From the IMG/VR virus record IMGVR_UViG_3300009433_000058, positions 1-23,677 of that record: a stretch of DNA of 23,677 nucleotides, one strand, 5' to 3'. Below are positions 7,274 through 22,967 of the stretch, piece after piece; position 1 is the stretch's first letter; each line of letters opens with the position of its first letter. Below the pieces are notes generated by a model that saw nothing but the letters and a program-made list of their open reading frames with translations, was not told the origin of the DNA and ran no database searches. This stretch comes from a virus. The position numbers and the translations under genes are program-made.

Positions 7274-8536
7274 TTAGTAAGCTTCCCATTTTCTCTTAGT
7301 TGCACTTTGTAAACAAGCGTACGCCAATACATCAACTGTATCGTCGTGCTCTCCAACTGGAAAAGTTAGTAACTCTCGCTCTACTGCAAGAATCCAGTCT
7401 TTATCTTTAGGAAAGTATACTTGTCCTCTCTCCATCTTAGCAGACAAAGGAAGTGCCCGTGAACGCTTGTCTTTATCAGCTCTTAATTCTTTGATTCTAA
7501 GACCTTCTCTTCTAGCGAACTGAACTATTGCTAACTGATAACCAGCACGCTCAATTCCTACCCATTCAAGATTGTGTATTCCAACCATTCTTTTTATTTG
7601 AGGAACAATGTCCGGTGCTTCAACTCTATCTCTAAACATGTCTAGTAAAAATAGTTTATCATCTTCAATGTTGTGACCAAATACACCAATAACGGTATAG
7701 TCAGCAGATTCTTTTGTGGAAACAGCTAAGTCAACAGTAGCAAATTTGACTAAGTCTTTGTCTATGTCATATTTTTTGCCATCTGCCCATACCGTTCCTA
7801 CCCCTTCTTTATAATAATTAAACCATTCAGTTCTGAATACTTGAGCACCTTCAGATATAAAATCAGCTAAATACTCTTGAGCAAAAACTAATTCACCTAA
7901 ATCTTCTCTTGCTGACTCTACTTCTGCTGGGTCAATCATTGGATTAGAAACAGTTGGGTATTGGAATCTAGCCCAATCTTCTGCTGTATCTGCTTTTTCC
8001 CATAATTTATAAAACCAATTGTCCATTCCTATAGGCGTACTGATAAATAATGCAGAACCTTTATTTTCTGTAAGAGTAGGACGAAGTACTTCTGTCCAAG
8101 TTTCTTCTCTTACGAAAGCAGCCTCATCCATAACAAGATAATGCAAACCTTCACCTCTTAATCTTTGTGGATTATCAGCAGATTTAACAGCAATAGAACC
8201 ACCACCGGGAAAATGTACAGTCATATCACCGACTTTTACATCTACACCAGCATCTTTAGGAAAAACACCTGCTGCTGCTACAACATCACGCCAACCAACT
8301 CTAGCTATTGCGAATGTAGGTGCAACCCACCAAACTCTACCACCTGCTAATGCTTTTTCCATGCATAATTGCACTCCAAGCCTTGATTTACCAAAACGAC
8401 GACCAGCACATAATATTTTCCAACGTGCTTCACTGTCTCTCACTTCTTGCTGTGCTTCGTGAAGAGGTGGAAATTTTATGTCAAGATACTTTTTCTTCTG
8501 TACTGGTGTGTCTTCAAGAATGTCTCTATTACCCAT
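7274..8536 (-). CDS. Terminase large subunit (420 aa)
   Basis: DNA-packaging motor. The N-terminal ATPase shows Walker A CAGRRFGKS (about 43-51), Walker B LHYLVMDEAAF (D137, E138) and the coupling motif FISTP (about 164-168). The C-terminal RNase H-fold nuclease shows FATVDLAVS (D269), WVGIERAGYQ (E329) and GEHDDTVDVLAYA (D398/D399, D402). Length is typical. The family is that of HK97-like siphophage terminases. It is the first gene of the head operon. The small subunit is not adjacent; the only candidate is 6 kb away at 14685-15104. Confidence 0.95.
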   Translation of the reverse strand: MGNRDILEDTPVQKKKYLDIKFPPLHEAQQEVRDSEARWKILCAGRRFGKSRLGVQLCMEKALAGGRVWWVAPTFAIARVGWRDVVAAAGVFPKDAGVDVKVGDMTVHFPGGGSIAVKSADNPQRLRGEGLHYLVMDEAAFVREETWTEVLRPTLTENKGSALFISTPIGMDNWFYKLWEKADTAEDWARFQYPTVSNPMIDPAEVESAREDLGELVFAQEYLADFISEGAQVFRTEWFNYYKEGVGTVWADGKKYDIDKDLVKFATVDLAVSTKESADYTVIGVFGHNIEDDKLFLLDMFRDRVEAPDIVPQIKRMVGIHNLEWVGIERAGYQLAIVQFARREGLRIKELRADKDKRSRALPLSAKMERGQVYFPKDKDWILAVERELLTFPVGEHDDTVDVLAYACLQSATKRKWEAY

Positions 8537-8550
8537 TATTTCTCTAGTCT

Positions 8551-8580
8551 ACTATACTTATTTACGGATATTCTGGGTAA
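8551..8580 (-). promoter_or_regulatory. Possible weak promoter for the head operon
   Basis: TATAGT (8551-8556) lies 14 nt upstream of the terminase ATG and 18 nt from a poor -35 (TTACCC, 8575-8580). It lacks the features of the strong promoters elsewhere in the window, so it may be a late, activator-dependent promoter. Expression of the head module must start near here, because a strong terminator (8623-8644) blocks entry from the right. Confidence 0.3.
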
Positions 8581-19335: not shown

Positions 19336-19386
19336 TTTATACCTACTTTCTATTAGTTTTCTCTCTTATTCATTTAACTAATAGCG

Positions 19387-19464
19387 TGGAACTGTGGGGA
19401 GTTGAACCCCAGTATCCTCAAGGGCAGAAATTAATCTGCTCCGAGGGCTAAACCCGTCAGTCCC
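19387..19464 (-). tRNA. tRNA/tmRNA-like element, atypical
   Basis: GGGACTG pairs with CAGTTCC as a 7-bp acceptor stem, including a G3-U70 wobble (the alanine identity pair), followed by A73. The T-arm is perfect: TGGGG-TTCAACT-CCCCA. The D-arm is poor (GGG/CCC, 5-nt loop). The anticodon arm is GCAGA/TCTGC with a 6-nt loop, extendable through CCTC/GAGG. CCA is not encoded (CGC follows). The acceptor plus T-arm resemble the tRNA-like domain of tmRNA. The 5' strand overlaps the last codons and stop of the 52-aa gene. It could be a degenerate tRNA, a mini tmRNA-like mimic or a processing signal. Confidence 0.5.
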
Positions 19465-20587: not shown

Positions 20588-20839
20588 CTAACAATCGCTG
20601 TAAAAGTCATATTGAAACTGTTTAGTTGCAACTGGGTCGTTAAACCCTTACTCTGTGCAGGTAGTTTCCGATAAGCTCACTATGAACAACAGGGACTGAC
20701 AGGGACCCCCAGTGTCGCTGAGGTTATCACCTAGGATAAACCACAAGCGTCTTTGTGTGTGTCGAGTATGTTGCAGGTAGTTTCTTTTCGAGACTATGGA
20801 CACTTTACGAGCCAGTTTCTCAATAACTTCTACAGCCAT
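20588..20839 (-). other. Interrupted reading frame or structured RNA
   Basis: From ATG 20839 a frame runs 63 codons (MAVEVIEKLARKVSIVSKR.. SETTCTE) to TAA (20648-20650). It then continues in the same frame for 19 more codons (GFNDPVATKQFQYDFYSDC) to TAG (20588-20590), which abuts the next promoter and lies in a weak hairpin, as real gene ends do here. The middle looks less protein-like and carries two direct copies of GAAACTACCTGCA (20657-20669, 20772-20784). No good SD. Options: a decayed gene, an inserted element, or a structured RNA. Confidence 0.35.
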
Positions 20840-20858
20840 TGTTAGTTAGTATATACTA

Positions 20859-21330: not shown

Positions 21331-21412
21331 TTTTAAAAATAATTTAAAAAAAATATTTTGGTAATTTTTACCAAGAAAATAATCTAGACTTTTACTTTAG
21401 ATTTTGCTCCAG

Positions 21413-21583: not shown

Positions 21584-21844
21584 TTACCTGTACCAGTAGT
21601 CGGATTTCTTGGACTTACTGTATAAGTCCCAGAATTTAGATGGGTTCTTAGCAACGTATTGCTTAACAAACGCATCTCTAGAATTAAAAGGTACTTGGTT
21701 CACGATGAACTTACCAATTAATCTAATAGCCCTATAAGACGATTTACCAACGGAAAAGCTTCCATCAGCATTTCTGAATCTAGAGTCATCAAGGTATGCT
21801 TGTACATTCCTTGGTGCTCTGTCAAAGTAGTCTTTCATAGTCAT
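21584..21844 (-). CDS. Basic unknown protein (86 aa)
   Basis: Start MTMKDYFDRAP at 21844, set by GAAAGGAAG upstream; M3 is an alternative. Sequence features: RNVQAYLDDSRFRNADGSFSVGKSSYRAIRLIGKFI..KNPSKFWDLYSKSKKSDYWYR, basic with aromatic C-terminus. It lies directly 3' of the 432-nt RNA domain on the same transcript, with a TTGTACC/GGTACAA hairpin just before its SD that can compete with the RNA's closing stem. It may bind or depend on that RNA (inference). Confidence 0.7.
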   Translation of the reverse strand: MTMKDYFDRAPRNVQAYLDDSRFRNADGSFSVGKSSYRAIRLIGKFIVNQVPFNSRDAFVKQYVAKNPSKFWDLYSKSKKSDYWYR

Positions 21845-21870
21845 TGTCTTCCTTTCTTGTACCCACCTTA

Positions 21871-22381
21871 GGTACAACTAAACTATCGTTGACCTCGCTT
21901 CACAGTTGGTTATGCTGCGACTTTGGTCTTGACAAACAAATGCGTCAATGCTTTTTAACAAACAAACTCTCATTTCGGGAACTCGTAGCTCAATCTGTCC
22001 ATCAGATACTTGACTACCCACGCTCTCACGTACAGGTCTAAAACCTGCTACCCCTTCACAAGGGTAAGGATGACTCTCACTTTACTGTCAAGTCCTATTG
22101 GTCTCACTAGCCCGGTCCGACTGATTTTTCACTACAGCAATGCAGTCAGTCTCCTCCCTCGGCTCGGCATGCGTCCCACTTGCAGGTGGGTACCGACCAT
22201 ATTTCCCGGGTAACTCTCCCTATTTGTTTGGCATCGTTTATGTAGTCAGCTGCAGATTCAAACTGCCCACCTTCTACCGTCTGCCGATAGTTTAGTTCTA
22301 CCTATTCAATTGTGTAAAGGTGTTGAAGCCGAGCGTCCATTTGTACCTCATCGCTCATTGTGGAAGCTTCCCCAACCTGTT
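21871..22381 (-). ncRNA. Large structured RNA candidate with an 18-bp closing stem
   Basis: From a class 1 promoter (TSS about 22381). GGTAGAACTAAACTATCG (22302-22285) pairs with CGATAGTTTAGTTGTACC (21888-21871), 17 of 18 pairs, closing a 432-nt domain. Inside, in order: CCCAC/GTGGG; GACTGA+CTGCA/TGTAG..TCAGTC; CCCTT-GTG-AAGGG; CAGGT-TTTAG-ACCTG; ATCTG-ATGGA-CAGAT; TTGAC/GTCAA; GAC-CAAA-GTC. This layout recalls ornate large phage RNAs (GOLLD/ROOL kind), but I cannot assign it to either. A frame of 18 codons, TAG, then 51 codons (22358-22146) overlaps its 5' part. Confidence 0.6.
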
Positions 22382-22387
22382 ATAACC

Positions 22388-22416
22388 AGTATATCATATC
22401 TTGCAAATAAATGCAA
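22388..22416 (-). promoter_or_regulatory. Class 1 promoter of the 432-nt RNA domain
   Basis: -35 TTGCAT (22411-22416), 17-nt spacer, -10 TATACT (22388-22393), inverted repeat TTGCATTTATTTGCAA, A-tract of eight (22429-22437) above it. Confidence 0.88.
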
Positions 22417-22439: not shown

Positions 22440-22967
22440 TATCATATGGGACTTGGATGCACCAAATACACTTAAGTACCGGGCAAGGTTTAGTAAGTCC
22501 AAATTTCCCCTCGCTCATCCTTCATAAATAGCTTGTAACACACAGTTTGGGGCTATCGCTCTGTTAAGGTCATCTAGTCTATACCCAAATCAATCAATTA
22601 AGTTCGAGATTACTCTCTCACACCACGACCAATGGCTTTATGTTTCCTATGTGCTACAAGCTACCTACCTTCACAGTTTCTTCCCCTAAGGTACTACCCA
22701 CTGCTACTACTATAAGTAGCTTGTAACACACACACTTGAAAAATGTATACCTTAATCAAATGCATTATGGCTCGGTTTCCCGACTTCTGACTAGCATTAA
22801 TGAACACCATATTATGTGCTACAAGCTACCTACCTCTGAACCTATTCGCCACTAGGGTATTAGGTTTCAGTAGTTAGCTTTTACAACGAACACAATTAAC
22901 GTGGTCTGCAAATAGTTGTTTCGTGTCTAGGTGGTAATGAGCCACCAACCATTATTGCCTTCGTTGT
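22440..22967 (-). ncRNA. Second large structured RNA candidate, two repeated stem domains
   Basis: TTACAACGAA/TTCGTTGTAA (22969-22960/22890-22881) encloses a GGTGG/CCACC hairpin; then comes CTGAA(A)CCTA/TAGGTTCAG. Two consecutive domains follow, each closed by the same 15-bp stem GTAGCTTGTAGCACA/TGTGTTACAAGCTAC (22829-22815 with 22730-22716; 22664-22650 with 22543-22529, the last pair weaker). Last is GGACTT/AAGTCC. The arms differ so that each helix keeps a G-U pair in the minus-strand RNA. Only short frames exist (18 codons from ATG 22952; 24 codons from TTG 22948 ending CVRCKS). Confidence 0.6.

Follow-up and report, generated by a model that had tools for sequence, protein, structure and literature searches.

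Only a small number of large structured RNAs lack a known job, and the recently solved ones have proved to be RNA dimers or cages. The RNA described here is closest in kind to ROOL, GOLLD and OLE, all of which are large, ornate and of unknown or poorly known function, and the first two of which are found in phages (PMC12286853, PMC9723947). ROOL (Rumen-Originating, Ornate, Large) RNAs are multi-helix, non-coding and encoded by phages or prophages, and their function is unknown (PMC12286853). GOLLD, likewise encoded by phages and lying near tRNA-type elements, has been recovered together with ribosomes in a pull-down (PMC12286853). OLE is an ornate RNA that forms a ribonucleoprotein with known protein partners (PMC9723947).

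Here, we describe an RNA of 436 nt encoded on the minus strand of an uncultured phage (IMG/VR record IMGVR_UViG_3300009433_000058). The 23,677 nt of this record are the whole stretch analysed and are called the window below. The record carries minus-strand genes of tailed phages (terminase, portal, head protease and major head), in agreement with the phage setting proposed in an earlier examination of the same DNA (hereafter the sequence-only reading); its head and terminase proteins have weak, scattered relatives by tblastn.

The RNA shares with ROOL its large size, multi-helix and non-coding character, phage origin and a tRNA-like element in the region, and with GOLLD the proximity of a large phage RNA to such an element. 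It differs from ROOL in its length of 436 nt, in being followed by a conserved protein gene and in matching no Rfam model; moreover, ARAGORN finds no tRNA island around it. GOLLD often exceeds 800 nt and combines a conserved 3' part with a less conserved 5' part, whereas the present RNA is shorter and conserved throughout. OLE offers a model for a partner protein of the kind that we infer below, but it is ~600 nt long and belongs to Gram-positive extremophilic or anaerobic bacteria.

A scan of positions 21840-22400 with the 4,227 models of Rfam 15 (E 10, lax filters) returned no match to the window RNA, and the GOLLD, ROOL, OLE, HEARO and raiA models matched neither this RNA nor any site in contig-wide scans. 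Membership of these five families, or of the introns or RNase P, is without Rfam support. The likeness to GOLLD and ROOL drawn in the sequence-only reading holds for the general profile, a large structured non-coding phage RNA, and fails at the level of the Rfam models. That the RNA is catalytic, be it a group I or group II self-splicing intron or RNase P-like, is improbable: a large, compact, multi-helix phage RNA with GNRA-type loops would suit that description, but the sole Rfam match in L008, one of the homologues considered below, is a RAGATH-26 fragment of 16.6 bits, and the flanks contain no interrupted reading frame. Searches of an open-access library returned no paper whose title or abstract describes this RNA, which is weak evidence of absence.

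Because the RNA combines strong covariation with the lack of a conserved reading frame and of a convincing Rfam match, it is a real structured RNA and apparently represents a rare class within the large structured phage RNAs, and a new one, as had been suggested from its want of an assignable motif. It adds a further large RNA without a match to known models, of a size that suits cryo-EM and in vitro work, and its defined promoter, well-defined ends and candidate protein partner make the use of such RNAs by phages testable.

Homologues, covariation and coding potential

The candidate interval analysed was 22381-21869 (minus strand). A homologue search started from the 86-aa gene at 21844-21584 (minus strand) led to three IMG/VR contigs (L006, L007 and L008), in each of which the RNA lies directly upstream of the corresponding 86/87-aa gene, with 96, 82 and 57% identity to the window, respectively. 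The comparative set therefore comprises four sequences, two of them close. From stem to stem, all four RNAs measure 436 nt despite alignment indels of 1 to 9 nt, a constancy that, with n=4, may reflect constraint or chance. Further IMG/VR scans, with four independent DNA patterns and with protein queries (three scans), in every case led back to these three contigs or to chance matches; one strict pattern had no match in 84,980 bacterial and archaeal genomes, and a phage collection contained no homologue by blastn or tblastn. Since these wider searches returned nothing new, the class is rare in the collections searched. One region of a further contig (L026, oriented 8210-8560), closed by a stem CGTAAAGTTATC/GATAACTTTACG, has GAAGCTACGAGTT and ATTGACGCA in common with the 436-nt RNA; as no profile or CM match was obtained, it is left out of the homologue set, but it could be a very distant relative.

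The four homologues were aligned with MAFFT, from sequence alone, and a consensus structure was derived with RNAalifold (Table 1). Compensatory change, scored when both partners of a pair differ in one or more of the sequences and pairing is kept, affects 46 of the 128 consensus pairs, and 95.5% of cells are paired. Shuffling the 3' letters gave 17.3±3.1 doubly changed pairs, with none of 500 trials reaching 46, and sliding the structure along the alignment gave at most 6. When column-permuted alignments were refolded from scratch (n=100), 14.6±3.5 such pairs were found (maximum 25), and the consensus energy was -48.8±4.9 kcal/mol, as against -121 kcal/mol for the real alignment. The closing stem itself has 5 of 19 pairs doubly changed and 100% of its cells paired. 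Among the variable pairs, 48 cells are G-U and 5 are A-C, which assigns the fold to the RNA of the minus strand.

No minus-strand ORF of at least 60 aa lies inside the domain, whose homologues differ by internal indels of 1, 5 and 7 nt. Mismatches between the window and L007 fall 33/27/20 by phase in the RNA, without an excess at third positions, and 15/11/41 in the adjacent 86/87-aa gene of the same genome pair. The frame 22358-22146, which the sequence-only reading had singled out as the one to watch, is not open: a TAG follows 18 codons, and with no conservation in the homologues this frame is ruled out. What stands at that place is an 18-codon ORF (MSDEVQMDARLQHLYTIE, 22358-22302, minus strand) preceded by an SD-like GGGGAAG and situated between promoter and RNA. 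That an ORF with a plausible SD opens the transcript is the one point in favour of a protein-coding region mistaken for RNA, but this ORF occurs in the window only, is missing from the homologues and lies outside the structured domain; for the domain, coding is refuted, and as an account of the region it is hardly conceivable. A conserved frame without paired changes, which the earlier reading had named as the outcome that would count against an RNA, is thus the opposite of what was found. The claim of that reading that the region holds no convincing gene stands, and the covariation in homologues that it had named as supporting evidence is present, the closing stem included.

Architecture of the domain

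Table 1. Features of the RNA locus in window coordinates
Feature	Position	Strand	Details
Promoter	22388..22416	-	-35 TTGCAT, 17-nt spacer, extended -10 TGATATACT
Structured RNA, stem to stem	21869..22304	-	436 nt; fold of 19 helices with two main sub-domains, from an RNAalifold consensus of 4 homologues and counts of pairs
Closing stem, 5' arm	22285..22304	-	19 bp and conserved G·G mismatch
Closing stem, 3' arm	21869..21888	-	pairs with 22304-22285
Inner stalk (H2, H5, H6, H7)	21932..22284	-	consensus helices
H2	22284-22278/21938-21932	-	
H5	22235-22231/21943-21939	-	
H6	22230-22223/21966-21959	-	6/8 pairs doubly changed
H7	22220-22216/21981-21977	-	
5' sub-domain (H8 to H12)	22111..22210	-	invariant unpaired GGAGGA, GAAAAA
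3' sub-domain (hairpins H13 to H17)	21993..22096	-	invariant UAAAGUGA, GUGA loops
3' hairpin (H18/H19)	21891..21928	-	8/10 pairs doubly changed, 100% of cells paired
Basic protein gene, 86 aa	21584..21844	-	SD AAGGA; directly downstream of RNA
Possible A+T-rich terminator	21345..21385	-	UUGGUAA..UUACCAA then U8, past protein gene; conserved in L007

The arms of the closing stem are 396 nt apart and 95% complementary over 20 nt (19/20 positions), slightly more than the 17 of 18 counted earlier, and the lone mismatch is kept in all four homologues. Arms so long and so nearly perfect could also be read as the 20-bp terminal inverted repeats of a miniature mobile element. This origin is very improbable, however, in that the element is present in a single copy in the window (other matches being to the promoter only), its flanks show no target-site duplication, and its internal helices covary with a G-U bias on one strand.

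Measured from stem to stem, the window RNA folds with z = -6.4 relative to dinucleotide shuffles, and the whole interval with z = -3.1; two homologues gave -3.9 and -5.5. The thermodynamic folding proposed in the sequence-only reading thus gave a positive answer, and its estimate of at least six hairpins is exceeded by the consensus. The clearest helices are H6, with the arm variants CAAACAAA/TTTGTTTG, CAAATAGA/TCTATTTG and AGATATAC/GTATATCG, H11, and H18, with GACC/GGTC, TGAT/ATCA and AGGT/GCCT. The poor score of H10 stems from a one-base shift in the sequence alignment; L008 does have the arms, as CTGAC/GTCAG. A scan for additional helices produced a single convincing one, nested rather than a pseudoknot, and the 3' sub-domain is compatible with an extra closing helix UAGU/GCUA (AAGU/ACUU in L008). 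The invariant unpaired elements are UUGAA, GCAA, GGAGGA, GAAAAA, UAAAGUGA, GUGA, GAAA, UUAAAAA and UAAC; loops of these A-rich and GNRA types can serve in tertiary contacts.

Transcription unit and candidate modes of action

The extended -10 promoter upstream of the RNA reads TTGCAT-N17-TATACT and is preceded by an A-tract. It is found again at at least eight other places in the window and is for this reason taken to be the standard promoter of the phage. From its position, transcription is expected to start near 22381, the end coordinate assigned in the sequence-only reading; the RNA domain begins ~77 nt past that point in the window, and 20-80 nt past the expected start across the four genomes. 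The domain had been credited with a strong promoter of its own: the promoter is present, but its -35 box is weak (3/6), which leaves the extended -10 and the A-tract as the grounds for the label ‘strong’. In the homologues, the locus carries the promoter type of the respective genome. That of L008 is different (TTGACA-N17-CAATAT, repeated within the contig), and the RNA has therefore kept its position while the promoter changed.

All four genomes show the same order, namely promoter, short leader, RNA, a gap of 20-30 nt, SD and the 86/87-aa gene, which the sequence-only reading had missed. The gap contains no predicted terminator or promoter in any of the four. The encoded protein shares 67-89% identity with its counterparts in the three homologous contigs, with a coding-type substitution pattern, and has a net charge of +8 to +10 and a pI of about 10; the model of the 86-aa form is all-helical (pLDDT 86), and searches for sequence relatives and for the fold came back empty. 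RNA and protein occur together in all four genomes, and both are missing from seven other records that have another RNA module of the region. The possible terminator past the gene (Table 1) was read by eye and went unflagged by the terminator scan, which demanded three G-C pairs.

The favoured reading, to which we give a probability of about one half, is that of an RNA molecule acting in trans, from a new and rare class of large structured RNAs in phages. The main rival, and a serious one with an appreciable chance of being right, is a cis-acting leader, that is, a 5' UTR controlling the 86/87-aa gene by sensing a ligand, the state of the ribosome or the protein itself (autoregulation). Because the RNA heads a transcription unit upstream of a conserved gene in four of four genomes, on the same strand and with no promoter or terminator seen in the 20-30 nt between them, this reading has to be entertained; cis-regulatory leaders, too, stand directly 5' of a gene in each genome. 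In addition, an alternative hairpin between GUACC of the 3' arm and GGUAC just before the SD, present in all four genomes, would have to compete with closing-stem pairing at the base. This hairpin is, however, predicted at P <=0.007 as against >=0.99 for the closing stem, and most predicted folds leave the SD unsequestered. Furthermore, 436 nt and 19 helices are far larger than known riboswitch leaders.

Under the trans-acting reading, a single transcript would carry both the RNA and the 86/87-aa gene, and the 19-bp closing stem would keep or set the ends of the RNA. Cutting by an RNase III type enzyme in a long stem is known for pre-rRNA, and the shape of the present stem suggests that a double-strand-specific nuclease of this type might cut the RNA free there. 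With its invariant A-rich and GNRA-type loops in contact, the matured RNA could then fold up as a compact particle, and the charge of the helical, basic protein marks it as a likely RNA partner. One of the invariant unpaired elements, GGAGGA, has the sequence of the Shine-Dalgarno consensus; on this six-base match, contact with the 16S anti-SD may be guessed at as a target. A bolder version of this reading is a new type of phage RNA-protein particle: an ornate RNA of constant 436-nt length, excised at its stem, would assemble either with the co-encoded basic protein or with other copies of itself and would act on the host (e.g. on the ribosome via GGAGGA). It would then belong to a group of RNAs, closed by long stems, that these phages exchange as modules. 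As a whole, this picture is speculative and rather unlikely.

Other structured elements of the region

Several other structured RNAs lie near the 436-nt RNA, and this phage group is marked by an unusual density of them. The tRNA-like element noticed in the sequence-only reading is indeed present, 2.4 kb from the RNA, although ARAGORN called neither it nor any tRNA gene. It is 81 nt long (window 19384-19464, minus strand; L006 3673-3754; L007 7828-7909) and resembles a tmRNA reduced to its tRNA-like domain, with one hairpin in place of the mRNA part; it scores 32-39 bits with the tmRNA model, below the cut-off, and shows compensatory changes in the acceptor and T stems.

Another structured RNA (window 20590-20850, minus strand; L006 2130-2390; L007 6345-6610; L008 2455-2680) has a closing stem of ~25 bp, and 22 of its 66 consensus pairs show double changes. 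A short ORF that begins with MAVEVIEKLARKV overlaps it and is missing from L008. Tandem RNA-like modules (window 22529-22832, minus strand; L007 3927-4112; L008 800-1045; L022-L026) have in common an 18-bp closing stem, UAGGUAGCUUGUAGCACA / UGUGUUACAAGCUAUCUA or variants of it, and enclose differing inserts.

A module of ~55 nt, AATGGTTGGTGGCTCATTACCACCTAGACACGAAACAACTAnnTGCAGACC[A/C]CGTTAA (window 22892-22954, minus strand; L009; L022-L028), is almost invariant in nine phage contigs, and the surrounding stems differ in sequence with pairing apparently kept. It has no Rfam match in the scanned contigs and can alternatively be read as the peptide MVGGSLPPRHETTxCRPR. A repeated element GTAGGAGTTC..TGCCCTGTT..GAACTACCGAAAGCTAGATA, in most cases with a T run behind it, occurs in L022, L023, L025 and L026. 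What appears to be a further RNA of ~290 nt, with the ends GGTTAG/CTAACC, lies between two promoters at L007 4170-4460. Finally, a short ORF (MTTNGYIVREFQAGTVECTCGTGNVHRHPHGKGVTLTPLA; window 20093-19971, minus strand) with two cysteines and several histidines stands behind one of the repeated promoters and overlaps a weak alpha_tmRNA match.
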